The notes under the pieces were generated by a model. It saw nothing but the letters and a program-made list of their open reading frames with translations. It made no database searches and was not told where the DNA came from. This document shows positions 8,051 through 51,551 of a stretch of DNA of 64,000 nucleotides, in pieces. A program made the translations under genes and the position numbers. The stretch is from Bacteroidaceae bacterium (GTDB taxonomy: Bacteria > Bacteroidota > Bacteroidia > Bacteroidales > Bacteroidaceae): assembly GCA_017429525.1 (NCBI GenBank), contig JAFROT010000010.1, positions 62,001 through 126,000 of the forward strand, read 5' to 3'. Position 1 is the first letter of the stretch. Each line of letters opens with the position of its first letter.

Positions 8051-8260
8051 AGACCCACCCCCTGCCCCTCCCGTCAGGGAGGGGGGAAGCCTCACCCCCG
8101 ACCCCTCTCCCAAGGAGAGGGGAGTAGATACCTTTCAAGAATTGCATTCGCTCATTAGTATTAGCAAAGACATTCCCATTTACATCAATATGACAAACAA
8201 GGAACAAACACCGCGCCAGCCACTCCCCTCCCTGACGGGAGGGGGACGAGGGTGGGTCTT
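8051..8260. repeat. Family A element spanning the permease 1-permease 2 junction
   Basis: Left arms at 8051-8128 (CCCCTCCCGTCAGGGAGGGG, then CCCCTCTCCCAAGGAGAGGG GAG) lie after the stop of permease 1 and are followed by ATACCTTTCAAG. The right arm at 8213-8260 (GCGCCAGCCACTCCCCTCCC, then TGACGGGAGGGGGACGAGGG TGGGTCTT) is inside permease 2. The start codon of permease 2 therefore lies in the loop. Confidence 0.75.
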
Positions 8261-10706
8261 CCTCACCCGCATGAAAGGCTACACCATCCTCTCGCTGCTC
8301 GGTCTCATCATCTCCCTCAGCGGCACCGTCATCATCAGCCGCTACCTCTATCAGGAGTGGACGATGGATCACTTCATGCACGACCTCGACCGCACATATA
8401 TCCTCAAGTTTGGCAACGGGGATTACGGCAGCTTTCCGGCGAACTACAAACTCTTCGGCATCGAGCAATTAGCTTCTCACTTCGAGGGACGCGACGAGTT
8501 GGAGGCTGTGGCTTCGCTCCATGTCTTCGAGACCATGAAGGTGACGATGCCCAGCGGTGAGGTGCTGCAACCCGGAACCATCGGCGTGGATAGCATGTTC
8601 CTGGATCTCTACCCTTTGCGCCTCGCGGATGGCACGGGAACGCTGACGGGCGACGACAAATGTCTGCTCAGCGAGAAGCTGGCCGCACAACTGTTTCCCA
8701 ACAAACGCGCTGTGGGACAGACGCTGACGCTGAACAGCAGCGAACTGCGCACCATTGTGGGTGTCTTCCGTCAACCCGAGACCAAGACGAGCCTGAGCTT
8801 CGACCTCATTTGCTCTGAGACCATTCCCAACCAGCGTAATTCCGTGACTGCATTCACGATCCTCCGCTTCCGTCCGGGAACCGACATTCAAGCTTACAAC
8901 GCCCAGCTGTCAGACGACTTTGACATGGGTTTCTCTGGCGACAGGACCTTCAAGTTCTCCGTCCATCCCTATAGCCAAGGCTTCTTGGATAGTGAGTACC
9001 AGAAAGCCTGGTCACAGAATTACGTCAGCGGTATCATTCAACTGCGCAGCAACCCTCACTATCTGTGGCTGTTGCTGGTCGTGGCTATCCTGCTCCTCGG
9101 CGTGGGTCTTTTCAATTTCGTCAACCTCTTCGCCGTGATGCGTTCGCATCGTCGCCACGAACTGCACGTCCGCCGCCTCTTCGGTGCCTCCCGCTGGGAC
9201 CTCTTCCGCCTGCTCTACTACGAGACCTTCGTCCTCGCCCTCCTCGCTATGGTAGGTGTCTGGACGGTGGTGGAACTCACCACGCCCCTGCTTGCCACCT
9301 ATTATAATATAGAAGTGATGGGGCAGTGGAAGTTTGATGTGGCGCTGACGGCGGTAATCATTATCATACTACCATTAGTCGGACCCTCCCCCCTGCCCCT
9401 CCCTTGTAGGGAGGGGAGTAATTACCTTTCAAGAATAAAGAGGGCAACCAGTCAAGTACATCTTACTCCCCTCCCTACAAGGGAGGGGCAGGGGGGTGGG
9501 TCCGCTGGGGGTGCTGCAGCCTTCCTCTTCCTCCAATTCTTCATCTCCCTCACCCTCACCACCGCCAGCATCTATCTCATGCGCCAGCTGCACGTGATGA
9601 TGAAGGCCGACCCGGGCTACCGCACAGAGAACATCCTCTCCTGCATGCCGTTCCCCGATCGCAACGAACCCTCAATGGTGACGCAGGAGTGGTACGACAG
9701 GCTCTACAGCGACAGCCGCCTGCTGCGCGACCGTCTCAACGCTTGCCCGCATATCAAATCGTATGTCACCGACCCTTACATCATGACGGGAGGTATGCCC
9801 ATCAAGGCCAATGACCACAACATCACCTACATGCAGTGGAACCCGAAGCTGCAAGCGCTCTTCGGCCTACAGATGGCGGAGGGACGCACCTTCAACGACA
9901 CCATCGACCAAGATGAACAATACCGCTGCATCGTCAACGAGACGGCAGCACGCCTACTGGGCATACGCGATATTCGTCGAGACAAGGTGGACTTCGACCA
10001 GCGCCTCTGGCAGTTGCACGATGAGAAATGGCACACATTGAGCGAGCAACCGTTAGTTCCCTACGAGGTGGTGGGCATCATGCGCGACTTCCATCCCGGT
10101 CGCATGTCCGAACCCCAGCCTGCCATCGTCTTTGTCTATCAGCGGGAAGACCAAAGCAAGCATCTGGCCAACACCCATTTGCTCCTCGACGTGTTACCCG
10201 GTCATGAGCAGGAAGCCATCGACTACATGAAGGCTACCGTCAGCGACCTGTTCCAATCGAAGGAGTTGCCCTGCAAATGGTTGACGGAGATGAAGGCCGA
10301 CCTCTACCGCGAGGACCGCCGCACAGCGCGCATCTTCATCACCTTCTCGCTCTTAGCCATCGCTGTCACCTGTCTCGGTGTCCTCGGTCTGATGCTCTTC
10401 GACGTGCGACGTCGCTACCGCGAGATAGCCCTCCGCAAGGTGCATGGCGCCACGTTCCTCGACATCGCCCTGCTGCTCTCGCGCCGCTACCTCATCGTCT
10501 TCGCCGTGGCCGCCGTCGCCTCCCTGCCCGTCAGCCTCCTCGTCATCCACCGCCTCATGGCCTCATACACCATCCACACCTCCTTCGCCTGGTGGATTCC
10601 GCTGATGAGCATCACCCTCATCCTTGGGCTGTGCGCGCTGACGTTGTGGCAGCAGGTTTGGAGGGCAACGAGGATTAAACCGTATCAAATACTCAAAGAA
10701 CAATAA
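8190..10706 (+). CDS. FtsX/MacB-type ABC transporter permease, second paralogue
   Basis: 838 residues from the ATG at 8190 (MTNKEQTPRQPL), matching the start chosen for the first paralogue. An upstream TTG at 8142 is open but lies in repeat-derived DNA. It has the same eight-helix FtsX-like plan. The first 50 or so residues and the last 140 are nearly identical to permease 1 even at DNA level, whereas the periplasmic domains are strongly diverged, so the pair probably exports as a heterodimer. A 123-bp family A element (9381-9503) is inserted in frame before FLQFFISLTLTTASIY. The ATPase gene begins 7 bases after the stop, so they share one transcript. Confidence 0.9.
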   Translation: MTNKEQTPRQPLPSLTGGGRGWVFLTRMKGYTILSLLGLIISLSGTVIISRYLYQEWTMDHFMHDLDRTYILKFGNGDYGSFPANYKLFGIEQLASHFEGRDELEAVASLHVFETMKVTMPSGEVLQPGTIGVDSMFLDLYPLRLADGTGTLTGDDKCLLSEKLAAQLFPNKRAVGQTLTLNSSELRTIVGVFRQPETKTSLSFDLICSETIPNQRNSVTAFTILRFRPGTDIQAYNAQLSDDFDMGFSGDRTFKFSVHPYSQGFLDSEYQKAWSQNYVSGIIQLRSNPHYLWLLLVVAILLLGVGLFNFVNLFAVMRSHRRHELHVRRLFGASRWDLFRLLYYETFVLALLAMVGVWTVVELTTPLLATYYNIEVMGQWKFDVALTAVIIIILPLVGPSPLPLPCREGSNYLSRIKRATSQVHLTPLPTREGQGGGSAGGAAAFLFLQFFISLTLTTASIYLMRQLHVMMKADPGYRTENILSCMPFPDRNEPSMVTQEWYDRLYSDSRLLRDRLNACPHIKSYVTDPYIMTGGMPIKANDHNITYMQWNPKLQALFGLQMAEGRTFNDTIDQDEQYRCIVNETAARLLGIRDIRRDKVDFDQRLWQLHDEKWHTLSEQPLVPYEVVGIMRDFHPGRMSEPQPAIVFVYQREDQSKHLANTHLLLDVLPGHEQEAIDYMKATVSDLFQSKELPCKWLTEMKADLYREDRRTARIFITFSLLAIAVTCLGVLGLMLFDVRRRYREIALRKVHGATFLDIALLLSRRYLIVFAVAAVASLPVSLLVIHRLMASYTIHTSFAWWIPLMSITLILGLCALTLWQQVWRATRIKPYQILKEQ
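9381..9503. repeat. Complete family A element in frame within permease 2
   Basis: Left arm GGACCCTCCCCCCTGCCCCT plus CCCTTGTAGGGAGGGGAGTA and right arm TACTCCCCTCCCTACAAGGG plus AGGGGCAGGGGGGTGGGTCC are almost perfect reverse complements around a 43-base loop that starts ATTACCTTTCAAG. It is 123 bp, a multiple of three, without stops. Confidence 0.9.
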
Positions 10707-36444: not shown

Positions 36445-37696
36445 GAGTAGAGATGGTGGCTACGATTGACTCGGTGGCGCCTTCATGGCGCTTCATATAA
36501 TCACGAGCGGTCTGGCTGATCTTCTCCAGGCGCTTCTCGTTGTCTTTCAGTTCGGCAAACCAATCGTCCAGCTGCTCGGCATTCTCAACGATGCGACCGA
36601 CGCCCAGCTCGGCCAGTTCCTGAGCTGTAGGCTTACGCTCGATGCGCGGGCCATAGGCTACGGGCAAGCCGTAGGCAGTGGCTTCGATGATGCTGTGCAG
36701 GTAGGGCGTAAAGCCGCCGCCGACGTAAGCCCAACGGGCGTAGCGATAGATTGAGGCCAATGCTCCCATGAAATCGATGATGAGCACCTGCGTCTTCGAG
36801 AAATCCGTCTCAGGCGTGCAGTGGGAGTAGCGATGGGCCTGACAGAGCAAGCGTTTCTTGATGCGGAGGATATTCTCGGGACTGATCTCGTGAGGGACCA
36901 GGATGAAGCGCGTGTCCTGATGGCGGTTGGCCACGGTGGCTACCATTTCCAGGTCCTGCTTGTCATGGATACTGCCTGCGATGAATACCTTGCCTCCATT
37001 CACAAAGTGCTCGATGATAGGATTCTCATAGGGCGAACGTGCCACCTTACGGGCGTTGTCGAACAGCGGATCGCCCGTCACAGTCACATTGGTGAAGCCA
37101 ATCCGTTGCAAGCGCTTCTGCGAAGCCTCGTTGAGCACGAAGAAATGCGTATAGGTCTTCAATTGGCGGCGCCAGAGGCCACCATACCAATGCATGAACG
37201 GTGCCCGCTCGGTGATGTTGGCCGATACGAGATAGGTCGGGATCTCGCGCTTGCCCAATTCGTAGAGGTAGTTGACCCAGTACTCCGATATGATGAAGAC
37301 GGCACGCTGAGGCTTGACGGTGTCCAGGAACCGACGTACGTTACGCGGCTTGTCCAACGGCAGGGCATAGACGGCGTCGACATGCTGGCGATAACGCTTC
37401 AGATAGTCCAGACCCGAAGGTGAGAACACCGTCAGCACAATGCGCCACCGACCCGATTCATGCAGCCGCCGGACGATCGGCTTGGCCACATTATACTCGC
37501 CCAACGATGAAGCGTGCACCCAAAGCGTCGGACGCTCATCGCCCGTGGCACGCTCGTTGGCGATAATGTGATTCAACAGCCCCTGCTGCCCTTTGACAAA
37601 GCGGAGGAATTTCATCCGAGGATGACGAAAGAACAGCGAGAAGATCTGAAAAATAAAATCGATCAGATAGGCTATCTGGTTGTATATTGTATGCAT
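36434..37696 (-). CDS. waaA: 3-deoxy-D-manno-octulosonic acid transferase
   Basis: 420 residues from the ATG at 37696, chosen because the TATCTTTG promoter at 37727-37734 lies upstream; a longer frame to 37759 would cross it. One N-terminal membrane anchor (YNQIAYLIDFIFQIFSLFF), an N-lobe with WVHASSLGEYNVAKPIVRRL (active-site Glu), and the C-lobe AYVGGGFTPYLHSIIEATAY. Transfers Kdo from CMP-Kdo to lipid IVA. First gene of the lipid A/core operon running down to 28701. Confidence 0.95.
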   Translation of the reverse strand: MHTIYNQIAYLIDFIFQIFSLFFRHPRMKFLRFVKGQQGLLNHIIANERATGDERPTLWVHASSLGEYNVAKPIVRRLHESGRWRIVLTVFSPSGLDYLKRYRQHVDAVYALPLDKPRNVRRFLDTVKPQRAVFIISEYWVNYLYELGKREIPTYLVSANITERAPFMHWYGGLWRRQLKTYTHFFVLNEASQKRLQRIGFTNVTVTGDPLFDNARKVARSPYENPIIEHFVNGGKVFIAGSIHDKQDLEMVATVANRHQDTRFILVPHEISPENILRIKKRLLCQAHRYSHCTPETDFSKTQVLIIDFMGALASIYRYARWAYVGGGFTPYLHSIIEATAYGLPVAYGPRIERKPTAQELAELGVGRIVENAEQLDDWFAELKDNEKRLEKISQTARDYMKRHEGATESIVATISTHEG

Positions 37697-37726
37697 GAAA
37701 ACTGTCGTATCTCTGGATTTCGGCTG

Positions 37727-37734
37727 CAAAGATA
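37727..37734 (-). promoter_or_regulatory. -7 box for the waaA/LPS operon
   Basis: The minus strand reads TATCTTTG, about 30 bases before the chosen ATG. Confidence 0.65.
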
Positions 37735-37809
37735 CGCTAACTTTGGCGGAAAACATCACGAAAAGCGAAAAAAAGTGATAAAGATGATGGAAGAGTCGGA
37801 AAGATTTGC

Positions 37810-37817
37810 TACTTTTG
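37810..37817 (+). promoter_or_regulatory. -7 box for the lipoate ligase/glycine cleavage genes
   Basis: TACTTTTG matches TAnnTTTG, 21 bases before the ATG at 37839. Confidence 0.6.
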
Positions 37818-37838
37818 TGGCCGCAGAGACCAAAAAGA

Positions 37839-38558
37839 ATGATTTACGTCAGCCTTCCCAGTACGCTACGACGTCGCCTGAGTTTCTATCTGGCGATGGA
37901 GGAGTACTTGGCTCGCGAGAGGAACGACGGCGACGACCTCTTCTTCGCCTGGCAGGTAGAACCCACTGTCATCTTCGGCCGCAATCAGGTCATCGAGAAC
38001 GAGGTGAACCTCGACTACTGCCAGCGCCACGGCATACAGTTCTATCGCCGCAAGAGCGGAGGAGGTTGCGTCTATGCCGACCGCTCCAACGTCATGATGA
38101 GCTACATCACGCGCTCCGACGAAGTTATCAAAACCTTCACACGTTATATGAATATGGTGACGACGATGCTCCGCGACCTGGGGCTCGAAGCCACGTCGAC
38201 AGAGAACAACGACGTCCTCATCGGCGGGCGCAAGGTATCGGGCAACGCCTTCTACCACATCCCTGGCCACAGCATCGTGCACGGCACCATGCTCTTCGAC
38301 ACCGACATGCAGCACATGCTCAGCGCCATCACACCCCCGCAGACGAAACTCGACAAGCATGGCGTAGAGAGCGTCAGACAGCGCATCACCCTCCTTCGCG
38401 AGCATACCGACCTCAGCATCGACGCATTCTGCACCTACACACGCTCTCGCCTTTGCAACCGCGAACTACTGCTCACGTCTCTGGACGTGGAAGCCATCGA
38501 GAGCCTCGAACGCGAATACCTTGAGCCCTCATTCATCTATGGTACCAAAAGCACATGA
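37839..38558 (+). CDS. lplA: Lipoate-protein ligase A family protein
   Basis: 239 residues from the ATG at 37839 just after the promoter box. Biotin/lipoate-ligase fold: FYLAMEEYL, FAWQVEPTVIFGRNQVIENE, the lipoyl-AMP loop FYRRKSGGGCVYADRSNVMM, and VLIGGRKVSGNAFYHIPGHS with the catalytic Lys. HGTMLFDTDMQHM follows. It attaches lipoate (or octanoate) to lipoyl proteins; the GcvH gene 1.6 kb downstream in the same direction is the obvious substrate. Shorter than some LplA that carry an extra C-terminal domain. Confidence 0.9.
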   Translation: MIYVSLPSTLRRRLSFYLAMEEYLARERNDGDDLFFAWQVEPTVIFGRNQVIENEVNLDYCQRHGIQFYRRKSGGGCVYADRSNVMMSYITRSDEVIKTFTRYMNMVTTMLRDLGLEATSTENNDVLIGGRKVSGNAFYHIPGHSIVHGTMLFDTDMQHMLSAITPPQTKLDKHGVESVRQRITLLREHTDLSIDAFCTYTRSRLCNRELLLTSLDVEAIESLEREYLEPSFIYGTKST

Positions 38559-38615
38559 ACTCACAAGCTAAAAGACTCATAAATTCATTATCTCAAATAC
38601 TTACAAACTTATAGT

Positions 38616-39719
38616 ATGGAAAAGAAAACCTGCCTCTATGACCGCCACGTGGCACTCGGCGCACTGATGTCGCCCTTCGGCGGATTCATTATGCCTATCC
38701 AGTACACGAATATCACCGACGAGCACAACGCCGTGCGCCAGCACTGCGGTGTCTTCGACGTCAGCCATATGGGCGAAGTGCGCATTACTGGACCCGATGC
38801 CGAGCGCTACGTCCAGCATATCTTCACGAACGATGTGACCGATGCACCCCTCGGGCAGATCTACTATGGCATGATGTGCTATCCCAACGGCGGTACGGTT
38901 GACGATCTGCTCGTCTACAAGATGGGCGAGAACAATTTCTTCCTCGTCATCAACGCAGCCAACATCGACAAGGACGTCGAGTGGATGCAACAGCAAATGG
39001 AAGGCTTCGACATCAACCTCGACCACCAAAGTGACTACTATGGCCAGCTTGCCGTTCAAGGTCCCGAGGCTGAAGCCGTTGTCGAGGAAGTGCTCAATCT
39101 TCCCTGCAAAGAGCTAAAATTCTACACGGCAAAGACGTTGGATGTAGCTGAAGGCGACGAGGGCGAAACCATTATCATCTCCCGCACAGGCTATACCGGT
39201 GAAGACGGTTTTGAGATTTATGGCTCACACGAATTCACGCAGCAGGCATGGGACAAGCTCATCGAGAGCGGACGCTGCAAGCCCTGCGGCCTCGGCTGTC
39301 GCGACACGCTTCGCTTCGAGGTCGGCCTGCCCCTCTATGGCGATGAACTCAGCGCTGACATCACGCCCGTCATGGCCGGTCTCTCCATCTTCGTCAAGCT
39401 CGACAAGGAGGAGTTCATCGGCAAAGAAGCCCTCGCTGAGCAGAAAGCCAACGGCGTTCCAGCACGTATCATCGGTATCGAGCTGGCCGACAAAGCTATT
39501 CCACGCCATGGCTACCCGGTCCTGAACGAGGCTGGCGAACAGGTAGGCGAAGTCACCACCGGCTACCACTGCCTCAGTGTCGACAAGAGCGTCTGCATGG
39601 CCCTTGTCAAGACCGAATTTGCCAAGCTGGGCACACCCCTGAAGGTGCAGATCCGCAAGAAGATCTTCCCCGGCACGGTCGTCAAGAAGCAGTTCTATAA
39701 TAAGAGTTATAAGAAGTAA
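38616..39719 (+). CDS. gcvT: Glycine cleavage system T protein (aminomethyltransferase)
   Basis: 367 residues, full length. Takes the aminomethyl group from GcvH and yields methylene-THF and ammonia. Typical motifs: [40 protein letters not shown] and [20 protein letters not shown]. No repeat insertion. Begins the gcv operon; the stop merges with family B repeat DNA. Confidence 0.97.
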
Positions 39720-40178
39720 TTAGAAAATAAGAAATTTAGAAATTAAGAAATTTAGAAAAGGAGATGATTAGGAATAATCTGTTGGCTGAGCTAAGCAAAA
39801 AATTTGCCTTGCGAATAATGAAATTGTCTAAGTTTCTTAAAGAAGAGTGAAAAGAATTTGTCATTTCTCACCAAATCTACAAATCCGGAACGAGTATTGG
39901 TGCGAATATAGCGGAAAGCAAATATGCACAGAGCAAGCCTGATTTTCTCACCAAGCTGAATATCGCTCTTAAAGAAGCCGGCGAAACAGATTATTGGATA
40001 GACCTCTTGTTCTTGTCCGAGACCATCGGTCAGAAAGAATTTGATTCTCTAAAAAACGATTTAAATATAATTATTGGTACATTAATCAAGGTAATTAAGA
40101 AAACGAGAGACAATATGGATGAGGATTGACCCTTAGCCTTTCTTATTTTCTTATTATCACAATTTCACATTTACAATT
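39718..40178. repeat. Full-length family B element enclosing a four-helix-bundle gene
   Basis: Left arm at 39722-39762 (GAAAATAAGAAATTTAGAAA, ending AGAAAAGG) and right arm at 40137-40176 (CCTTTCTTATTTTCTTATTA, then TCACAATTTCACATTTAC) are complementary. The decayed four-helix-bundle gene fills the loop. The same arms without a gene occur at 40561, 42471, 43001 and 44408. Confidence 0.75.
39764..40129 (+). pseudogene. Four-helix-bundle (23S rRNA intervening-sequence/S23-like) protein, broken by TGA
   Basis: An ATG at 39764, preceded by AAAAGGAG, opens a frame that reads MIRNNLLAELSKKFALRIMK, then SKFLKEE, then TGA (39848-39850). It continues in the same frame with KEFVISHQIYKSGTSIGANI, the core of the S23/IVP family, and ends DNMDED at 40129 (121 codons). 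A CGA-to-TGA change would explain the stop, since the rest is undamaged. These proteins are known from intervening sequences in 23S rRNA genes, flanked by inverted repeats, exactly the setting here. Transposition or RNA roles have not been shown. It splits gcvT from gcvH. Confidence 0.85.
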
Positions 40179-40559
40179 ATGGCAACATTTGAATCAGGAC
40201 TCTACTACAGTGAGTCACACGAGTACATTCGCGTAGAAGGCGAATTTGGTTTCATTGGCATCTCCGACTACGCTCAGCATGCTCTGGGTAACGTGGTCTA
40301 CGTTGACATGCCAGAGGTGGATGACGAAGTCACCGCAGGCGAGGAGTTTGGTGCCGTCGAGAGCGTCAAGGCTGCCAGCGACCTCATTTCGCCCGTCAGC
40401 GGCACCGTTGTGGAGGTCAACGAAGCGCTCGAGGACGAGCCCGAACTGCTCAACAAGGACGCTTTCGCCAACTGGATTATCAAAGTCCAGCTCTCCGACC
40501 CCACTGAACTCGACAACCTCATGGACGTCGAAGCTTACAAGGCTCATTGCGAGGCGTGA
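40179..40559 (+). CDS. gcvH: Glycine cleavage system H protein
   Basis: 126 residues, full length. Carries the lipoyl arm between P, T and L proteins. The lipoyl lysine lies in FGAVESVKAASDLISPVSGT, and YSESHEYIRVEGEFGFIGIS and GNVVYVDMPEV are typical. Its start lies directly after the right arm of the full-length family B element. Lipoylated presumably by the lipoate ligase at 37839. Confidence 0.97.
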   Translation: MATFESGLYYSESHEYIRVEGEFGFIGISDYAQHALGNVVYVDMPEVDDEVTAGEEFGAVESVKAASDLISPVSGTVVEVNEALEDEPELLNKDAFANWIIKVQLSDPTELDNLMDVEAYKAHCEA

Positions 40560-40560
40560 G

Positions 40561-40650
40561 AGATAAGAGATTAAGAAAATAAGATAATAAGAAAGGAAGA
40601 GGCTGCCTCCGCCTTTCTTATTTTCTAAATTTCACATTGTCTAATTTTCA
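40561..40650. repeat. Family B repeat between gcvH and gcvPA
   Basis: AGAAAATAAGATAATAAGAA followed by AGGAAGAGGCTGCCTCCGCC and TTTCTTATTTTCTAAATTTC ACATTGTCTAATTTTC form a hairpin. The right half has the TTTCACATT and CTAATT sequence shared by the intragenic copies. Confidence 0.8.
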
Positions 40651-40653
40651 GCT

Positions 40654-42000
40654 ATGCAATTCAAGTACTTTCCCCACACAGAAGAAGACCTGCAGGAGAT
40701 GCTGAGAGTTTGTGGCGTCTCCTCTGTCCACGACCTCTTCGCCGACGTGCCCGAGGCAGCGCGCTTCCGTCGCGACTACGAACTGCCGCAAGCTCTCTCT
40801 GAGACCGACCTGCGCCTCTTCTTCGAGCAACTGACGCACCCTCTGAACGCACAGCAGCTTATTTGCTTCGCCGGTGCCGGTTGCTACGACCACTATGCGC
40901 CCAGCGTAGTCCAGAACCTCATTCAGCGCTCCGAGTTCCTGACCTCCTACACCCCCTATCAGGCCGAGATCTCGCAGGGAACGCTCCACTACATCTTCGA
41001 ATACCAGTCGATGATTGCCGAGCTGACAGGCATGGAGATATCAAACGCCTCATTGTACGACGGCGCCACCGCTACAGCCGAGGCAGCCATGATGGCGTGG
41101 TCCAACGCCAAGAAGGCCACCCGCGTGCTCGTCAGCGAGACCGTTGACCCGAAGGTGCGTCGCGTCGTCGATACCTATGCCCACTTCCATGGCATCCCCC
41201 TCCAGCTCATTCCCGCTGAGAACGGCGTCACATCGCGTGCTGCCCTCGACAAAGAGCTCTCCGAAGGCGGCGTGGCGGGCGTCATCCTCCAACAGCCCAA
41301 CTACTTCGGCATCGTCGAGGACTTCACAGGCATCGCCGATGCCGTGCATGGGCAGAAAGGCATCCTCGTCATCAACGCCAACCCCAGCGACCTTGCCATC
41401 CTGAAGACTCCGGGTGAATGGGGCGCCGACGTCGCCGTGGGCGAAGGTCAGAGCCTCGGTATTCCTATGACCTTCGGTGGTCCCGGCGTTGGTTTCATGG
41501 CTTGCAGCGAGAAACTCATCCGCAAGATGCCGGGGCGCATCGTCGGTCAGACCCTCGACAGCCGTGGTCAGCGCTGTTTCGTGCTGACGTTGCAAGCTCG
41601 CGAGCAGCATATCCGTCGGCAGAAAGCCACCTCCAACATCTGTTCCAACCAAAGTCTCATGGCCCTCTATGTGACCATCTACCTCGCCGTTATGGGCAAG
41701 GAAGGGTTGCGCGAGGCTGCCGAGATGAGCTACGCCGGAGCCCATAGCCTCTGCGACAAGCTTCTCGCCACGGGCAAGTTCCGTCTCACCTACCCCGACC
41801 AGCCTTTCTTCAACGAGTTCTGCGTCGACTACGACGGCGACCTCGATGCACTGATGGCCGAAGCCACCGAGTGCGGCTACCTCGCTGGCGTGAAGGTGGG
41901 CGAGAAGACCCTCATGCTTGCCGTCACCGAGCAGCGCACACCCGAGGAAATTGAAGAGTTAGTGGAAATCTTAAAAGAACATAAGGAGGCACGAGCATGA
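40654..42000 (+). CDS. gcvPA: Glycine dehydrogenase (decarboxylating) subunit 1
   Basis: 448 residues, usual length for the split P-protein alpha subunit. Markers: FAGAGCYDHYAPSVVQNLIQ, PYQAEISQGTLHYIFEYQSM, NASLYDGATATAEAAMMAW and KATSNICSNQSLMALYVTIY. Works with GcvPB, which holds the pyridoxal-phosphate lysine. Start and stop are free of inserts; the stop overlaps gcvPB by 4 bases (ATGA). Confidence 0.97.
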   Translation: MQFKYFPHTEEDLQEMLRVCGVSSVHDLFADVPEAARFRRDYELPQALSETDLRLFFEQLTHPLNAQQLICFAGAGCYDHYAPSVVQNLIQRSEFLTSYTPYQAEISQGTLHYIFEYQSMIAELTGMEISNASLYDGATATAEAAMMAWSNAKKATRVLVSETVDPKVRRVVDTYAHFHGIPLQLIPAENGVTSRAALDKELSEGGVAGVILQQPNYFGIVEDFTGIADAVHGQKGILVINANPSDLAILKTPGEWGADVAVGEGQSLGIPMTFGGPGVGFMACSEKLIRKMPGRIVGQTLDSRGQRCFVLTLQAREQHIRRQKATSNICSNQSLMALYVTIYLAVMGKEGLREAAEMSYAGAHSLCDKLLATGKFRLTYPDQPFFNEFCVDYDGDLDALMAEATECGYLAGVKVGEKTLMLAVTEQRTPEEIEELVEILKEHKEARA

Positions 42001-43607
42001 ACAGAACATTATACGGAAACCTGATTTTCGAACTCTCGAAGAAAGGACGTCGGGGCTACTCACTGCCTCAGGATTACGACCGCACGCACAGCACGGCTGA
42101 GTTGCCCGAGGCCCTGCGCCGTAGCGAGGCAGCCCGCCTGCCCGAGTGCGACGAGCTGACCGTAGTGCGCCACTATACAAACCTCAGTCACAACAACTTC
42201 GGTGTGAACGACGGTTTCTATCCATTAGGTTCCTGCACGATGAAGTACAACCCCATCATCAACGAGGAGATTGCTGCCATGAAGGCTTTCGCCGGCCTGC
42301 ATCCCCTGCAGCCTGCCGAGACGTGCCAAGGTGCACTCGAAGTCTACTACAACCTCCAGCAGTCCCTTGCCGAACTGGCTGGCCTCAGCGAATTCACGCT
42401 GAACCCCTGTGCCGGTGCCCACGGCGAGTTGACAGGCTTGATGGTCATCCGCGCGTATCATGAGGCAATGGGAAATAAGAAAATAAGAAATGAAGAGATG
42501 AAGAAAGATGAAGCGCCAGCCTCTTCTAATTCTCTTAATTCCACATTTTCTAATTCTCAAAGAACCAAAGTCCTCATCCCCGACTCCGCCCACGGCACCA
42601 ACCCCGCCTCAGCAGCTGTCTGCGGCCTGGAAGTCGTAGAGGTGAAGAGCCTTCAGGACGGCACCGTGGATGTCGACCATCTGCGCCAGCTTCTCGATGA
42701 GATGGGCGACCAAGTGGCAGCCATGATGATGACGAACCCCAACACGCTCGGTATCTTCGAGCCCCGCGTGCTGGAAATCACCGATATGGTGCACAAGGCT
42801 GGCGGCCTGATGTACTACGACGGCGCCAACCTCAACGCCCTCCTCGGCGAGTGCCGCCCAGGCGATATGGGCTTCGACGTCATGCACATCAACCTCCACA
42901 AGACCTTCTCCACCCCTCACGGCGGTGGCGGTCCCGGGAGCGGACCCGTCGGCGTGCGCAAAGGTCTGGAGCAGTTCCTGCCTACGCCTCGCGTGGTGAT
43001 GGAAAATGAGAAAATAGGAAATGAAGAAAATAAGAAAGACGCTGCGTCAGCATCTTCTAATTCTCTTATTTTCACAATTTCCCATTCTCAGTCCGCTCCC
43101 CTTTCCGTCGGCAGCTTCTTCGGCAACTTCGGTGTGATGCTGAAGGCCTACGCCTACATCCTCAGCCTCGGTCACGAGAACGTGAAGCACGTAGGCCCAC
43201 TGGCCACGCTCAACGCCAATTATATTAAGGAACGCCTGCGCGACGACTACCTTCTCCCCATCGAAGGGCTGTGCAAGCACGAGGTGGTCTTCGACGGTCT
43301 CGTCGATAAGAGCACAGGCGTGACCACTATGGACGTCGCCAAGCGCCTGCTCGACTACGGCTACCACGCTCCCACCATCTACTTCCCCCTCCTCTTCCAT
43401 GAGAGCCTCATGATAGAGCCTACAGAGAACGAGAGCAAGGAGACCATCGATGCCTTCATCGACGTGATGCACACGATTGCAGCCGAAGCCAAGTCCGACC
43501 CCGAACTGGTCAAGACGGCTCCCCACAACACCCCTATCGGTCGCGTGGACGATGTCTTAGCTGCTAAGCACCCTATCACCACGTATTGGAAATCATTGGA
43601 AGCATGA
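41997..43607 (+). CDS. gcvPB: Glycine dehydrogenase (decarboxylating) subunit 2, with two in-frame repeat insertions
   Basis: 536 residues, about 50-60 more than usual. PLP-dependent: LGSCTMKYNP, DSAHGTNPASAAVCG, and the PLP lysine in DVMHINLHKTFSTPHGGGGP. Decarboxylates glycine onto the lipoyl arm of GcvH. Two family B elements are inserted: one after VIRAYHEAMG (42471-42558) and one after PTPRVVMEN (43001-43090). Each adds nearly 30 residues ending in (A/S)SSNSL-type peptides. Conserved motifs on both sides are intact, so a working enzyme is likely. Stop overlaps lpdA start (ATGA). Confidence 0.96.
   Translation: MNRTLYGNLIFELSKKGRRGYSLPQDYDRTHSTAELPEALRRSEAARLPECDELTVVRHYTNLSHNNFGVNDGFYPLGSCTMKYNPIINEEIAAMKAFAGLHPLQPAETCQGALEVYYNLQQSLAELAGLSEFTLNPCAGAHGELTGLMVIRAYHEAMGNKKIRNEEMKKDEAPASSNSLNSTFSNSQRTKVLIPDSAHGTNPASAAVCGLEVVEVKSLQDGTVDVDHLRQLLDEMGDQVAAMMMTNPNTLGIFEPRVLEITDMVHKAGGLMYYDGANLNALLGECRPGDMGFDVMHINLHKTFSTPHGGGGPGSGPVGVRKGLEQFLPTPRVVMENEKIGNEENKKDAASASSNSLIFTISHSQSAPLSVGSFFGNFGVMLKAYAYILSLGHENVKHVGPLATLNANYIKERLRDDYLLPIEGLCKHEVVFDGLVDKSTGVTTMDVAKRLLDYGYHAPTIYFPLLFHESLMIEPTENESKETIDAFIDVMHTIAAEAKSDPELVKTAPHNTPIGRVDDVLAAKHPITTYWKSLEA
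42471..42558. repeat. Family B mini-element in frame, gcvPB copy 1
   Basis: GGAAATAAGAAAATAAGAAA, then TGAAGAGATGAAGAAAGATG and AGCGCCAGCCTCTTCTAATT plus a CTTAATTCCACATTTTCTAA tail. Encodes KKIRNEEMKKDEAPASSNSL and STFSNSQ. The other two forward frames contain stops (TAA). Confidence 0.88.
43001..43090. repeat. Family B mini-element in frame, gcvPB copy 2
   Basis: GGAAAATGAGAAAATAGGAA, then AAATAAGAAAGACGCTGCGT and CATCTTCTAATTCTCTTATT plus TCACAATTTCCCATTCTC. Encodes EKIGNEENKKDAASASSNSL and IFTISHSQ, in the same frame as copy 1. Confidence 0.88.
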
Positions 43608-44950
43608 GCGACCTTATCATCATCGGCGCTGGCCCTGGCGGCTACAAGACTGCCCTCCACGCCGCCCAGCATGGGCTCCAAGTAACCATCTTCGAGCAGC
43701 AGCATGTAGGTGGTACCTGCCTCAATGTTGGCTGCATCCCCACGAAGACCTACGTCCACTCGGCATCCTTCGACGAAGCCGTTGAGCGCCAACCGCAGGT
43801 GGTAGAGCAGCTGCGCTCAGGCGTGGAGACACTCCTCTCCCACCCCAATATCACACTCGTGCGTGAGCGTGCATCCTTCGTCGATGCCCGCACAGTAGAG
43901 ACGCCCAGCGGCCAGCGCTACACAGCCGACAACATCATCATCGCTACGGGTTCCTCGACCAAGTACATCCCCGTTGAGGGCGTGAACGATCCTTGCGTGG
44001 TGGATTCCACAGGCCTACTTGCCTTGAAGGAACGACCTCGTCGCCTATGCATCATCGGAGCAGGCGTCATCGGCATGGAGTTCGCCAGCGTCTTCAACCG
44101 CTTCGGCTCAGAAGTCACAGTCGTGGAGTTCCTCAAGGAATGTCTGCCCGCCATCGACAGCGACATCGCCAAGCGCCTGCGCAAGGTGATGGAGAAGCAA
44201 GGCATCAAGTTCAATATGCAGTGCGGTGTCAAGCGCATCGCCGACGGCACCGTCTTCTTCACCAACAAGAAGGGGCAAGAGGAAAGCGTCGAAGCCGACG
44301 TCGTCTTGATGGCAACAGGTCGCAAGCCCAATACTGAAGGGCTGAACCTCGAAGCCCTCGGCATCACCCTCGAGCGCAACGGCGCCATCCCCGTCAACGA
44401 GCATTTCGAAATGAAGAAAATAAGAGATGAAGAAAATAAGAAAGACGATGCACCAGCCTCTTCTAATTCTCTTAATTTCACATTTCCTAATTCTCCCCAC
44501 ATCTACGCCATCGGCGATGTCAACGGCCGTCAGATGCTGGCGCACGCCGCTGAGTTCCAAGGCCACCACGTCGTCAACCACATCCTCGGCCTTGAGGACC
44601 ACATCCGCTTCGACGTCATGCCCGCCGCCATCTTCACCACGCCCGAAGCCGCCAGCGTCGGTCCCTGCGAGGGTCAGCTGAAGGAAGCCGGCACCCCCTT
44701 CGAGTGCCACAAAGCTTTCTATCGCGCCAACGGCAAAGCCTTGTCGATGAACGAGACAGAAGGTATGGTCAAGCTCTGCTGCGAGCCCGGCGAGGGTCGC
44801 CTGCTCAGTTGCCACGCCTATGGCGCTCACGCTGCCGACCTCGTGCAGGAAGCCACCGCCTACATCACGCTCGGCGCCACCCTGCGCCAACTGCGCGAGA
44901 CGGTGCACATCCACCCCACCCTCTCCGAGATCCTCATCGAAGTCAACTGA
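43604..44950 (+). CDS. lpdA: Dihydrolipoyl dehydrogenase (glycine cleavage L protein) with in-frame repeat insertion
   Basis: 448 residues from the ATG at 43604, which overlaps the gcvPB stop; an in-frame upstream ATG at 43586 is less likely. FAD motif IIIGAGPGGYKTAL, redox disulfide GGTCLNVGCIPTK, NAD motif CIIGAGVIGMEFA, C-terminal HIHPTLSE with catalytic His. Reoxidises the lipoyl arm of GcvH. A family B element (44408-44496) interrupts the loop just before HIYAIGDV, adding MKKIRDEENKKDDAPASSNS and LNFTFPNS. Last gene of the gcv operon; a strong terminator follows. Confidence 0.96.
   Translation: MSDLIIIGAGPGGYKTALHAAQHGLQVTIFEQQHVGGTCLNVGCIPTKTYVHSASFDEAVERQPQVVEQLRSGVETLLSHPNITLVRERASFVDARTVETPSGQRYTADNIIIATGSSTKYIPVEGVNDPCVVDSTGLLALKERPRRLCIIGAGVIGMEFASVFNRFGSEVTVVEFLKECLPAIDSDIAKRLRKVMEKQGIKFNMQCGVKRIADGTVFFTNKKGQEESVEADVVLMATGRKPNTEGLNLEALGITLERNGAIPVNEHFEMKKIRDEENKKDDAPASSNSLNFTFPNSPHIYAIGDVNGRQMLAHAAEFQGHHVVNHILGLEDHIRFDVMPAAIFTTPEAASVGPCEGQLKEAGTPFECHKAFYRANGKALSMNETEGMVKLCCEPGEGRLLSCHAYGAHAADLVQEATAYITLGATLRQLRETVHIHPTLSEILIEVN
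44408..44496. repeat. Family B mini-element in frame within lpdA
   Basis: GAAATGAAGAAAATAAGAGA, then TGAAGAAAATAAGAAAGACG and ACCAGCCTCTTCTAATTCTC plus TTAATTTCACATTTCCTAAT. It encodes the same peptide as both gcvPB copies. Confidence 0.88.
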
Positions 44951-44972
44951 CACGTTTCCTTCACATCAACAT

Positions 44973-45013
44973 AAGCGGTCCTTCACACCAACTGTGAGGG
45001 ACCGCTTTTTTCA
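44973..45013 (+). terminator. Rho-independent terminator of the gcv operon
   Basis: AAGCGGTCCTTCACA (44973-44987) pairs with TGTGAGGGACCGCTT (44993-45007) with one G-T wobble, then T-run. A nearly identical second copy is at 45957. Confidence 0.9.
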
Positions 45014-45313
45014 TGACTTCGTCATTGCGCCTCCCAAAAATCCCCATCGAATAGTTTTGCGATAGACTTGTGCCTCTTCATGGGCACTGTCTCAATAAAA
45101 TGCATCTTGTCGTAATCCTGCTCTCTTATACAATTTCCCCAAAATAATCTATCACTAAATCACTCACTATTGAGAACCAATAGATTACGAGTGATAGATA
45201 CAGTGATTGATGGGTGATTTAGTGATGTATTTTGCCTCAAAAATGGGGGTTGACACAAAATTCGACTGCTTCCTGACAGGGTATGCTATACTGAACATAC
45301 CGCTGCTCGGACG

Positions 45314-45456
45314 TGTCACCGGCTACCAGTTGACCTGCCGCTGGCTTCCAGTTGACGTGTCGCTGGCTACCAGTTGACGTGTCGCCGGCTACAGTTGACG
45401 TGTCGCCGGCTACAGTTGACGTGTCGCTGGCTACAGTTGACGTGTCGCTGGCTACC
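45314..45456. repeat. Tandem 21-23-bp repeats (TTGACGTGTCGCTGGCTAC)
   Basis: Seven units with variants CAG/CCAG at the junction and CTGG/CCGG in the middle. No spacers, so not a CRISPR. Confidence 0.75.
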
Positions 45457-45468
45457 AATATGAATTCG

Positions 45469-45536
45469 GTTTTCCAACCGCTTGGAAAACTGATGGCTCC
45501 TATGTAAAACCAGTTTTCCAACCAAATGGAAAACTG
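45469..45536. repeat. Two related hairpins (GTTTTCCAA/TTGGAAAAC)
   Basis: GTTTTCCAA-CCGC-TTGGAAAAC at 45469-45490 and CAGTTTTCCA-ACCAAA-TGGAAAACTG at 45511-45536 are perfect hairpins of 9 and 10 bp with similar stems. Confidence 0.75.
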
Positions 45537-45956
45537 TTAGGCTACGGGGTTTGCGGGTCAACAGCTATATCATTGCCAATAATTATCCAGATGAAAATTG
45601 GATGAACGCGTTAAAAAAAGTAAAATCAATCACTAAAGTGACTCTTTTTTTAGCGATCTATCACTGCTAATCGTTTGGTTTTCAATAACGAGTGATTTAG
45701 TGATTGATTATTTTGGGAAAACTCATAGAGGGAAGCTCAACTTCCACCGATGAAGTCGAACTCGAGCACGTCTGATGTTGCTTTGTGGTTCACTGAAAAT
45801 TGTGTGTCTGACATTTCTCTCGCAGTGGGCAGTATTCTATTTGAGGCAAAAATACCGCGCCTCCCAGCATAGAAGACCAAGTAGTGATTATCTGACAGTT
45901 ATGTTGTACCTGTAAAAAGTGGCGAAAACAACTGACACCGCCTTTTTGACAACACC

Positions 45957-45996
45957 AAGCGGTCCTTCACACGAACTGTGAGGGACCGCTTTTTTA
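45957..45996 (+). terminator. Second copy of the gcv-type terminator
   Basis: AAGCGGTCCTTCACA (45957-45971) and TGTGAGGGACCGCTT (45977-45991) followed by T-run. Plus-strand orientation, though no plus-strand gene precedes it. Differs from 44973-45007 only in the loop. Confidence 0.8.
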
Positions 45997-46027
45997 TAAT
46001 CAGTCGTAATCACACGCTGATGACTCA

Positions 46028-49000
46028 TTAATCCATGAGGGGACTTTCGTCGTCCATCCTTTCAGCAGCCATTCCCATGTGTCTTTGCTGCATCTCGACA
46101 ACCTTACGCGAATCCTGCACGACTGCCTTACGTGTCATGGGCGTGTAAGCTTCAATGATGCGTTTCCAGTCCATGATGCCCATGTCGGGATAGCGCGTTC
46201 CGAACTGTTCCATTGCTTCGCGCTGTAGTTCGAAGTCTTCAGTGGCAGGATTCAGTAGCAGACGATTATAGATAAGGTTGCGCACCTCGGCATCGTCCTC
46301 AACTGCATAGAGCTTGCGAACGGCATAGTTCTCTTCGTCGTCTGCCCAGCGGTCGCACTGAGCCATCACCGTGCGCAACGCCTGTTCCTGCCCTTCGGGC
46401 GGATAGTGGTATTTCTTCAGCAGTCGCTTCACCATCACGCGCATCTTCGCGCGGCTCGACTCCTTGCGATTCCAGTCGATGGTGCGGTTGCGGCGCAGCT
46501 CTTCGGTCAGTTCTTTTGTCAGTTCCACGAACTGCTCGTCGGTGTACGCCTGCCGTATGCCTTCGGGCGAGGTAAGCGCGTCGTAGAAGGCTTTCTCTTC
46601 GTTGTTCAGTCCCAACGCATTGTCCTCCTCTTCCTGTCGGCGTATCTCTTCGGCCATTTTCAGGAGTTCCTCGATGACCTCCTCGTTCGTGAGCATACCC
46701 TTCAGGTAGTTGGATAACGCACGGTTCATCATCTCCGAGAAGCGTTGGCTCTGCACGACGTTCGTGCGTTCGAACGTGCGCAAGCGGTCGTTCATCAGTT
46801 TCTTCAGCAGTTGCACCGCCAGGTTCTTCTCCTTCATCCGTCGTATCTCTTTGAGGAAGCTCTCGTCGAAGAGCGAGAACTCCACGTCGGCGAACAGGTT
46901 GATGACGCCTTGGCTCTTGATGCTCTGCTCCAATAGTCTGCTGATGCGCTCGTTGATATCGTGCTTCGTCACCTTGCCTTTCTGGCGGAAGCGCATGAGC
47001 ATCACGCGCACGGCGTCCATGAACGCCACCTCCTGTCGCTCCTGCTCGGTGGTCAGCGAGCGGCAAAGCGTCAGCGCGTTGTGCAGGAGTTGGCTCTCGC
47101 TGATGAAGGTTGACTCTCTAGAAGGTCTAGAATCTCTAGAAGGTCTAGGTGTTCTAGAGTCTCTAGAAGATCTAGAAGGTCTAGATTCTCTAGAGGGGGT
47201 GGGGTCGAGCATGAAGTTGACGCCGCCGTTGATGGTCTTGGCGCGCATAGTATTGTCGCCGTCGATGAACGCGCTGTAGTCGTAGCCGTGCATGAGGTCG
47301 CGGCACACCTCCAGCTTCTCCAAGAACTTCACGCGCGCCGTGGTCTGGATGTTCGGGTCTCCGTACTCCTTGCGGTCGCGCTGGGTGTAGTCCTTCATCG
47401 CCTGTCGCAGCGCGCTGGCGATGCCGACGTAGTCCACCACCAAGCCGCCCTCTTTGTTGGGGAACACGCGGTTCACGCGGGCGATGGCCTGCATCAGGTT
47501 GTGACCCTTCATGGGTTTGTACACGTACATCGTAGCGAGGCTCGGCACGTCGAAGCCCGTCAGCCACATGTCGACCACGATGGCTATCTTCATCGGGCTT
47601 TCATCGTCCTTGAATAGCTTCGCGTATTCCTTGTTCGTGCGGTCGTTGATGAGTTGGTGCCACTCCTCCTTGTCCTTGTTGCTGGGGCTTGCCACCACGT
47701 GCACCTTCTCCGTCCACTCAGGCCGCAGTTCCAGCAGCCGCTTGTATATCTTGAACGCCGCCAGCTTGTTGTAAGCCACTATCATCGCCTTGCCCGTCAG
47801 TTCGTTAGCGCGGTAATTCTCGTAGTGGCTCACGATGTCGTCGCACAGGCTCCGTATGGTAGCATCGCTGCACAACAGACCCTTGATGCCGCTATGGTCG
47901 TTCTTCGCCTTTTCGGTCTGCTCGGGCGTAGCGCCCTCTTCGGCCAGTTCGTCGAAGGCCTCGTCCAACTGCCGCAACTTGTCCTCGTCGAGGTTCAGGT
48001 TGATGACGCGGCTCTCGTAATAGACGGGGCGCGTGGCGCCGTCGGCCACCGCCTGCGTCATGTCGTAAACGTCGATGTAGTTGCCGAACACCTCTTGTGT
48101 GTCGCGGTCGCGGTCGGAGATGGGCGTGCCCGTGAAGCCCACGAACACGGCGTTGGGCAGCGCCTCGCGCATCAGTCGCGCGAAGCCTTTCCGCATCCGC
48201 TCGCTCTTCTCGTCCCAATGCTCCTCGCCGTACTGCGAGCGGTGCGCCTCGTCGGTAATCACGACGATGTTGCGGCGGTCGCTCAGCAGACCCGTGCCCT
48301 CCTCGAATTTCTGTATCGTCGTGAAGATGATGCCGCCCGTTTCCAAGTCCTTCAACTTGGTCTTCAGGTCGGCGCGACCGCCCTCGGCGGCCTTCGTCTC
48401 CTTGCCCTTAGCATTCAGCTCGAAGCCCACGCGCTGCGGTGTCTGACGCACAAACCGACTGCAGCCCGCAAACTGCTCGTACAACTGCTGGTCCAGGTCA
48501 TTGCGGTCGGTCACTACCACCACCGTCAGCCCCGGCACCGTCATCATCAGCTTGTGCACGAAGAACACCATCGACAGCGACTTGCCACTACCCTGTGTGT
48601 GCCAGAACACGCCGCCCTTGCCGTCGCGACGCTCATAGGCCTCGCGGGCACGTGCCAGCGCTTTGTTCACGGCGAAGTATTGGTGGTAGGCGCCCATCAC
48701 CTTGCGCGCCTTGCCTTCCTTGTGGTCGAAGCAGACGAAGTTCCGCAGGATGTCCAGCAAGCGCTCCTTAGGGAAGATGCCTTCGAAGAACGTTTCGTAG
48801 GGGATCACCTTGTCGGTGCTGTACTCGCCGCTCTTCGATTTCCATTCCATGTAGCGGTTCTGCGGTGCCGTGATGGTGCCGGCACGCGTGCAGAGCATGT
48901 CGCTCGTCACCGAGAACGCGTTATAGACGAACAGGCTCGGGCATTTCTGCTGGTACTGCTTGAGCTGCAAGTACGCATCGTCCTCCTCCACGCCGGCGTT

Positions 49001-50758: not shown

Positions 50759-51439
50759 CTACAATCCTCCCATTCCTTTAAGTTTGGTTCTCAGCATCGC
50801 GTTCTCCTGCTTCAACTGCTCTATCTCCTTCTGAAGTTGTTCTATCGCTTCGCGTTGGTTGGTGCGATAGCCGAGGCGCGCTGCGGTCATGCGTTCATGA
50901 ATGCCTCCTTCGGTGACGAACTCATGTTCCTTCTTCTTTTGGTAGGCGAGCATCATCTTATCCACCATCCGGCAGAGGCTGATGGCGATGTTGGCCATCT
51001 CCTCGTCGGTCCACTTCTCAAAGAACGTCTCGTAGTCTGCCACGTAGTTGTGTGAGCGGCAGAATTCGAGCATCGCTTCGAAGCGCGGGTGTCCGGGCGT
51101 CCAACGCACCAGGCGGTGGGCAGGAAGGTAATCCTCATAGTCCTCCTGCAGTTCTTTGATGCTGGAGCGAGCTATATTCAGCAACTGCAGCTCCATCTTG
51201 GTAGAAGTAACGCCGTCAGCCGAACCCTCCACGATGTTCTGCTTGCCCGAGCGCGCCGCCTGCACCATCTGATCCACCGTGCGGTCGCCGTACTGAGGCA
51301 GGAAGCGACGCGTGAACGTGTAGGTCAGCTGGTAGAGCACCACTGTCTTCTGGTAGAACCAAAGGTTCTGCCAGTTCGCCTGCTTGCGCAGGACGGACTC
51401 TATTTGCTTGGCGGGTTGCTGCTGTGGCTTGTTTTCCAT
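50759..51439 (-). CDS. Four-helix-bundle protein with coiled-coil suffix
   Basis: 226 residues. Residues 1-140 resemble S23/IVP four-helix-bundle proteins (LWFYQKTVVLYQLTYTFTRR, AARSGKQNIVEGSADG, ELQLLNIARSSIKELQEDYE), followed by a suffix and a heptad-rich tail (EQLQKEIEQLKQENAMLRTK). It lies between hsdM and hsdS and is probably cotranscribed. A TCTAGA repeat array lies just upstream, and another in hsdR. Known members are small basic proteins of unclear function. Confidence 0.85.
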   Translation of the reverse strand: MENKPQQQPAKQIESVLRKQANWQNLWFYQKTVVLYQLTYTFTRRFLPQYGDRTVDQMVQAARSGKQNIVEGSADGVTSTKMELQLLNIARSSIKELQEDYEDYLPAHRLVRWTPGHPRFEAMLEFCRSHNYVADYETFFEKWTDEEMANIAISLCRMVDKMMLAYQKKKEHEFVTEGGIHERMTAARLGYRTNQREAIEQLQKEIEQLKQENAMLRTKLKGMGGL

Positions 51440-51479
51440 CGCTTTTTGTTTTTTGGGGAGGCTAAGAGGGGGGAGGCTT

Positions 51480-51551
51480 TCTAGAGGGCCTAGAAGTTCT
51501 AGAAGTTCTAGAGATTCTAGAGGGTCTAGAGATTCTAGAGGGCCTAGAGCT
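51480..51551. repeat. Family D array between hsdM and the four-helix-bundle gene
   Basis: Eight 9-bp units of type TCTAGAGGG/CCTAGAAGT/TCTAGAGAT. The hsdM stop codon (51544-51546) lies inside the array. Matches the array in hsdR. Confidence 0.88.

Follow-up and report, generated by a model that had tools for sequence, protein, structure and literature searches.

PF05635 four-helix-bundle genes between inverted short-word arrays, and gene-less copies of the same words, as seen from a Bacteroidaceae glycine cleavage operon

Small genes of the PF05635 family (S23/IVP, 23S_rRNA_IVP), which encode four-helix-bundle proteins, recurrently lie between inverted arrays of a short word, and gene-less copies of the same word are found in their vicinity, some of them in frame within protein genes. 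The starting point is a stretch of 64,000 nucleotides from a Bacteroidaceae bacterium (assembly GCA_017429525.1, contig JAFROT010000010.1, positions 62,001 to 126,000), hereafter the window, whose glycine cleavage (gcv) operon holds five copies of one array family, called family B, at positions 39718..44496. A re-reading of the sequence confirmed all five where the original prediction had placed them, including the three that are in frame (two in gcvPB and one in lpd). We give a probability of about 0.6 to the reading that the gene-bearing copy belongs to a widespread class of small mobile elements, in which the gene and its arms form a unit similar to the intervening sequences (IVSs) of rRNA genes, accompanied by local gene-less relatives. 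Genomes, contigs and loci are cited below by G, C and L numbers, G000 being the genome of the window.

Genes enclosed by inverted arms

The gene with its inverted arms forms a recurring unit far beyond the window. When the upstream flank of each gene was matched to the reverse complement of its downstream flank, with a pass score of at least 36, strong inverted arrays enclosed 50/85 PF05635-type genes of the genus, as compared with 5/445 control open reading frames (ORFs), 8/334 mismatched flank pairs and 6/85 of the same pairs taken in direct orientation. These 85 genes are not a random sample, being mostly high-scoring rows of the search over the genus together with genes of the gcv regions, and do not include the window's own copy; ORFs above 200 codons, genes flanked by less than 150 nt and flanks present in duplicate were omitted beforehand, the first two omissions applying also to the named and phylum loci. 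A profile built from six proteins retrieved 80 named loci, and 34 of the 77 genes scored had inverted arms (controls, 12/271 ORFs), or 26/64 once the loci labelled Prevotella, from metagenome-assembled genomes (MAGs) perhaps of the window's own genus, were set aside. A phylum sample, taken by best score, yielded 5/30 against 1/45 controls. Hosts with arms of this kind include MAGs or strains of Terriglobia (L245), Clostridia (L242), Opitutales (L247), Nitrosomonadales (L273), Oryzomonas (L246) and Flavobacterium (L272). The family itself is common, with PF05635-type matches at E≤1e-10 in 117/139 genomes of the genus and 212/296 phylum-sampled genomes, and its profile also finds two chains of solved structure, 2rld and 2gsc (XCC0516). 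The window's own genome presents six PF05635 matches at E≤1, and its two other small PF05635 genes (L009, L010) are flanked on either side by a word proper to each gene.

Among the passing genes, a repeat period of 8 is commonest in the genus, with 7 in second place, and the named and phylum loci most often have 7. It is the upstream arm that is rich in G, with G exceeding C in 43 versus 6 genus arms and in 37 versus 1 at the named and phylum loci (29 versus 1 without the Prevotella-labelled ones). In another count, genes located between co-directional neighbours are co-oriented with them in 54/59 cases, as against 358/459 for controls, a count based on crude ORF calls in which L048 seems mis-oriented by eye. 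Finally, a GANNATA motif stands at the inner edge of 12/50 left and 9/50 right arms (shuffled expectation 6.7%), which is suggestive only.

The word differs between loci and goes with the lineage of the protein. Among pairs at different loci with less than 50% protein identity, word similarity rose above 0.15 in 5/3102, and this level was reached by 28% of the pairs at 0.6-0.7 identity and by 76% at 0.7-0.8. Pairs more than 60% identical at different loci exceeded it in 33/89 cases, with a mean of 4.2% and a maximum of 13.5% over 2000 permutations; the mean word similarity of these 89 pairs was 0.129, above the permutation maximum of 0.088. The signal is visible only above about 50-60% protein identity: over the whole range, word and protein similarity were rank-correlated at 0.088, within the permutation range (maximum 0.157). 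The slot before sdhB-like genes holds three gene and word types in different species (gene name and types assigned by eye). Two genomes each contain two four-helix-bundle genes within about 1.2 kb (G053:C168:1994-3138, on the same contig as gcvPB, and G057:C64:491-1635), which are about 90% and 60% identical to the family-B protein of G022, perhaps as a result of local duplication with a change of word.

Gene-less copies and in-frame inserts

Same-word copies that lack a gene are concentrated in the gene's neighbourhood. In regions of 10-20 kb, shorter where a contig ends, the highest-scoring additional match to an arm within the element's own region beat all unrelated regions for 12/26 elements, with 0.67 expected; random AT-rich segments used as control did so in 11/240 cases (p=3.6e-8). 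These local copies are hairpins or arrays, and lie both in spacers and within ORFs. Nine ORFs with an in-frame same-word array near the cognate element were inspected, of which six are recognisable genes (Table 1) and three (two at L154, one at L136) look spurious by eye. One of these regions, L121, also displays at about 7990-8097 and 9440-9510 a GGTTAAT word alternating with small hairpins, the stems of which vary from unit to unit and stay complementary.

In-frame inserts with empty orthologous sites are found in gcvPB, in EtfB and in the saccharopine-dehydrogenase-like gene, the last two being the hosts of Table 1 covered by the comparison of orthologues. The saccharopine-dehydrogenase-like gene is present in 123/139 genomes, and 15 of 30 loci were parsed, the others not fitting the text patterns. 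In 10 of the genomes the match runs straight through the insert, which consists of GGTTAGAGG words in 5 (two one-armed) and of GGAGCAAGG words, once degenerate, in 3; the 2 remaining inserts, including that of the window's own genome, are of other sequence. Two different words thereby share one codon site. A four-helix-bundle gene follows just downstream in 5/10, and its arm word is that of the insert in 4 of them (G030, G026, G102, G136). EtfB was found in 115/139 genomes, with 19 of 30 loci parsed; the unparsed ones include G043, G018, G057 and G110, which have a four-helix-bundle gene nearby. The inserts at one loop include a perfect inverted CCATTGA array (L336, L339), AAGTTAAAG arrays without inverted partner (L314, L322) and GC-rich palindromes, and in G095 the word of the insert is that of the nearby gene.

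For the gcv operon, 40 regions from 39 relatives of the genus, the best matches among 102 genomes with gcvPB, were compared. The first gcvPB site is empty, with just 18-21 nt, in 26/40 regions, and the Thermus protein (1wyt_B) does not have this insert either. The 14 filled sites carry family B in three cases (L075, L076, L077), other AT-rich word arrays in two (L088, and L089 with a GTTGACAAG array) and GC-richer sequence in nine, several of them palindromic. At the second site, read in 38 regions, family B is clearly present in L087 and other AT-rich arrays in L083 and L114. The gcvT-gcvH spacers (32 read) measure at most 30 nt in 13 regions, contain a family-B-type gene or its remains in six (L078, L087, L088, L089, L106, L114, with mere remains in L078 and L087) and hold other sequence in 13. 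Between gcvH and gcvPA (31 read), a four-helix-bundle gene occurs in six regions under three other words (L086, L101, L104; L096, L110; L112), L093 has a gene-less family-B hairpin, and the spacer is just 10-14 nt long in L097 and L106-L109. What fills a given slot therefore varies from species to species. The inserts are patchy and recent, the sites are hot, and the candidate view of ancient features shared by all relatives, which would have counted against the original prediction, was dropped on the count of empty first gcvPB sites.

The loops that host AT-rich arrays, in gcvPB (loop 1: L080, L082, L085) and in EtfB (L323, L334, L342), also receive in-frame GC-rich palindromes, which apparently constitute a separate family.

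The glycine cleavage operon of the window

The arms of family B are arrays of a drifting word of about 8 nt resembling AAGAAAAT, with a repeat spacing of 8, inverted around the gene or around a short loop (Table 1). The original prediction described one and the same palindrome with left and right strings common to the five copies. There is no fixed palindrome, and the strings turned out to be exact in some copies only, namely GAAAATAAGAAA in the left arm of every copy except copy 2, TTTCACATT in copies 1, 2 and 5, and TAATTCTC in copies 3, 4 and 5. Identity to copy 3 over 92 nt is 83% for copy 4 and 84% for copy 5, and inverted pair I7 joins the left arm of copy 1 and the right arm of copy 2 (88% complementary). 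The 12-mer GAAAATAAGAAA has eight exact matches in the 3.30 Mb assembly, six of which fall within this operon of about 4.8 kb, the remaining two lying within an ORF in C42 and in a single-arm array in C44. RNA folding z-scores of copies 2 and 4 are given in Table 1; copy 5 reached -2.57 and copy 3 only -1.55, and copy 3 therefore folds just weakly better than its own shuffles.

The gene-bearing copy sits between gcvT and gcvH, outside the 23S rRNA gene, and the broken state ascribed to its gene was borne out by a PF05635 match with one in-frame TGA. The product is 87% identical to a G022 protein and 85-92% identical to other close relatives, and intact relatives of the gene occupy the same place in other species. 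Positions 37500-46500 of the window gave no Rfam match at gathering score.

Table 1. Features of the glycine cleavage operon in the window, and genes of other regions hosting in-frame same-word arrays
Feature	Position	Strand	Evidence
gcvT, host operon gene	38616..39719	+	ORF; translation finds orthologues by tblastn
Copy 1 left arm, 8-nt word array	39720..39758	+	18-nt inverted match to own right arm, score 31
Four-helix-bundle / 23S_rRNA_IVP gene, one in-frame TGA	39764..40129	+	PF05635, E 2.1e-24
Copy 1 right arm	40136..40174	+	Sequence reading, string recount
gcvH	40179..40559	+	ORF
Copy 2, gene-less family-B hairpin filling the gcvH-gcvPA spacer	40560..40650	+	Inverted pair I4; fold z -4.42
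gcvPA	40654..42000	+	ORF
gcvPB with two in-frame inserts	41997..43607	+	GcvP2_C and GDC-P
Copy 3, in-frame insert 1 in gcvPB	42470..42558	+	Family B; also L075, L076, L077
Copy 4, in-frame insert 2 in gcvPB	43001..43090	+	Fold z -5.59; clearly common to L087
lpd (dihydrolipoamide dehydrogenase) with one in-frame insert	43604..44950	+	Pyr_redox_2 and Pyr_redox_dim
Copy 5, in-frame family-B insert in lpd	44405..44496	+	Same insert in G094 (L397)
In-frame array host, EtfB (L126)			Pfam
In-frame array host, saccharopine-dehydrogenase-like protein (L138)			Pfam
In-frame array host, PyrK-like (L131)			Pfam
In-frame array host, laccase-domain (L149)			Pfam
In-frame array host, DUF1015 (L151)			Pfam
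In-frame array host, glycosyltransferase-like ORF (L121)			By eye

Several other repeats lie downstream of the operon. Two terminator-like hairpins (AAGCGGTCCTTCACA...GGACCGCTT) at 44973-45011 and 45957-45995 are 97% identical and about 1 kb apart. An AT-rich inverted pair of 66 nt with GTGATTTAGTGAT-like words (45134-45199 / 45656-45721), 86% complementary and 456 nt apart, is possibly another element that lost its gene. Positions 45310-45460 contain GACGTGTCGCTGGCTACCAGTT-type tandem repeats of 21-22 nt, after which come two hairpins that resemble each other and have GTTTTCCAACC arms. Further on, at 50761-51550 on the minus strand, an ORF of 263 aa matches PF05635 weakly (L012, E 5.2e-8) and has a word array of the TTCTAGA type after it; arrays likewise follow its longer relatives, of GGGATTTC in L013 and of CAGATTACT in L014.

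Proposed mechanism and alternatives

The elements would have a common layout, in which a 7-8 nt word repeated n times precedes a PF05635 four-helix-bundle ORF and its reverse complement, again repeated, follows it, mostly between co-directional genes, where insertions would survive because their cost is small. Such a selfish unit would be embedded in the transcript, its arms folding as a stem enclosing the ORF or a short loop. The protein may bind its own word as hairpin RNA or as single-stranded DNA, and may promote local re-insertion or templated copying, either hairpin-templated or mediated by single strands, whereas slippage and hairpin-templated correction would keep both arms alike. Gene-less hairpins or arrays of the same word would be related to the local element and non-autonomous, having most likely arisen in its vicinity, and within coding sequences only in-frame, stop-free copies in a tolerant loop would survive. 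The original proposal of a gene-bearing parent with gene-less derivatives gains from the recurrence of the gene-arm unit and from the local same-word copies; the direction from parent to derivative, as stated there, is inferred and not supported. A reverse transcriptase was considered as a necessary partner in the same genome and dropped, as G000, an assembly 86.5% complete, has no RVT_1 match at E≤1e-8; 102 further genomes of the 139, also incomplete assemblies, are without match at this threshold. A broader formulation is tentative and rather doubtful: PF05635 genes would be the coding part of minimal mobile elements across phyla, each with a private, fast-changing word of 7-8 nt, alike on both arms and matched to the protein, which would drive local hairpin copying into the same transcript region, including in frame into host proteins.

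A number of observations weigh against a mobile element made of gene and arms. Many genes fall under score 36 (35/85 in the genus, 43/77 named, 25/30 in the phylum sample), as does the gene-bearing copy of the window, whose arms match each other over 18 nt only. Comparison of gcvPB and lpd orthologues, as had been advised, revealed sites without insert, and neither a target-site duplication nor an exact empty site was definable by eye, the relatives being diverged and the ends being arrays. The words of gene and insert do not always agree. They do so in 4/5 cases at the saccharopine-dehydrogenase-like gene (the gene downstream in G090 carries another word) and in 1/3 at EtfB, with mismatches in G030 and in G086, where the insert is a GC-rich palindrome; in L089, the gcvPB insert next to a family-B gene has the GTTGACAAG word. 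G016 and G084 have a four-helix-bundle gene near etfB and no EtfB insert. The density of periodic hairpins near such genes, 14 per 671 kb versus 4 per 398 kb in 20 control regions (p=0.14), was not significant, nor was another count of 16 per 718 kb versus 6 per 400 kb. A stringent family-B pattern, so strict that it misses the window's own copies, has 10 places in 6/139 genomes, and 0/10 have a detectable four-helix-bundle gene within about 1.5 kb on each side (less at contig ends, and decayed genes may escape). Family-B copies also occur in genomes where the best gene found is distant, namely G094 (49%) and G011 (52%), and in G082, which has no family-B gene match at E≤1e-25. Another array genome, G097, has no PF05635 match at E≤1e-6. 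At the level of genomes, arrays and genes show a weak co-occurrence, a close family-B gene being present in 2/6 array genomes (G057, G080) and 7/139 overall. Taken with a hairpin density that is not significantly raised, the lack of a gene near these arrays means that gene-less arrays are maintained, or originate, with no gene close by.

These last results bear on the strongest alternative, which we regard as unlikely and by no means negligible. Word hairpins would spread by themselves and locally, through replication slippage and template switching, the gene being a passenger or using the hairpins as landing sites. The locality of the copies is an expected outcome of template switching, gene-less word hairpins are present in control regions and away from any gene, and GC-rich palindromes unrelated to the gene occupy the same loops. 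However, self-spreading hairpins leave unexplained the matching arms around 50/85 genes, the recurrence of a protein's word at other loci and the G-rich upstream arm.

Alternatively, the protein might bind the word hairpins in its own polycistronic mRNA, with selection keeping the copies for operon processing or stability. Such a regulatory role is improbable: the presence of the units is patchy, sites are empty, the same slot of sister species holds unrelated inserts, and the gene is interrupted by a stop in the window's copy, with no more than remains left in L078 and L087. It would nevertheless agree with the co-orientation with neighbours, the transcript stem-loops and the orientation rule of the arms, and the rRNA version is removed by RNase III in Coxiella (PMC4990558).

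That the in-frame segments are ordinary low-complexity expansions of loops, which vary in length anyway and of which the EtfB arrays of G095 and G075 and that of L149, without clear inverted partner, could be examples, is hardly credible against the inverted array pairs of gcvPB, lpd, L138, L131, L151 and the EtfB of G030 and G090, inverted inserts that carry the word of a neighbouring element and are lacking in orthologues; for these inverted inserts, pure low-complexity drift was dropped.

Relation to known elements

The mobile element proposed here comes closest to the IVSs of 23S rRNA genes (Coxiella, Leptospira), described as stem, S23/IVP-family ORF and stem, patchily spread and suspected to be selfish (PMC4990558). 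The same paper reports the S23p of Xanthomonas campestris as a homopentamer and the PF05635 family as having no known function (PMC4990558). Both systems share the PF05635 protein and an ORF enclosed by inverted repeats, weakly so for the window's own copy (score 31), and a kinship would rest on protein family and stem-ORF-stem layout. In contrast, insertions here lie in operon spacers and in protein genes, the words of 7-8 nt that make up the arms change with the locus, and gene-less copies exist.

Rickettsia palindromic elements (RPEs) and Wolbachia palindromic elements are palindromes inserted in frame in unrelated protein genes. To our knowledge, RPEs are families of conserved sequence without a linked gene. 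They resemble the present inserts in being in-frame palindromes in unrelated genes with empty orthologues (gcvPB, lpd, EtfB, saccharopine-dehydrogenase-like). The present words, in contrast, are proper to the locus and not a family sequence conserved genome-wide, as indicated by the concentration of the family-B 12-mer in one operon (6/8), and a linked four-helix-bundle gene is common. The RAYT transposase is the coding partner of repetitive extragenic palindromic (REP) elements. Avd, the four-helix-bundle pentamer of diversity-generating retroelements, is probably related to PF05635; these retroelements differ from the present case, in which G000 lacks an RVT_1 match at the threshold given above. 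Short palindromic or inverted-repeat copies are described for REP elements (PMC3733652) and for BrickBuilt miniature inverted-repeat transposable elements (MITEs; PMC4596501). Both have in common with the present elements short inverted-repeat copies with or without a coding partner, and differ in that the protein linked here is of the four-helix-bundle type; the elements read showed no identifiable transposase, and no search aimed at transposase or RAYT was made.

Heptamer direct repeats of the TAACTGA type were reported from Beggiatoaceae, cyanobacteria and Bacteroidetes as mostly intergenic, with period 7 and a patchy phylogeny (PMC4679880). They are presented there mainly as direct repeats, and neither of the terms S23 and four helix appears in the main text. 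23S_rRNA_IVP genes are also known within cas loci, one of them between cmr3 and cmr2 (PMC3936711), which would fit an insertion into operon spacers, and are merely listed elsewhere (PMC8700078). Among the literature matches listed, which covered few subscription papers, none reports PF05635 genes joined to inverted short-word arrays. Of known kinds, rRNA IVSs, RPE-type coding palindromes and REP/MITE pairs come nearest, and, as far as these searches show, none among the matches listed combines locus-private short words with a four-helix-bundle gene.

Significance

These results suggest that a family of mobile elements has been largely overlooked. If the gene and its word arms are indeed one element, the PF05635 family would acquire a testable role. 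Part of the short-word arrays found in bacterial spacers would be explained in the same way, and conserved enzymes would have in these elements a source of new in-frame peptide loops.

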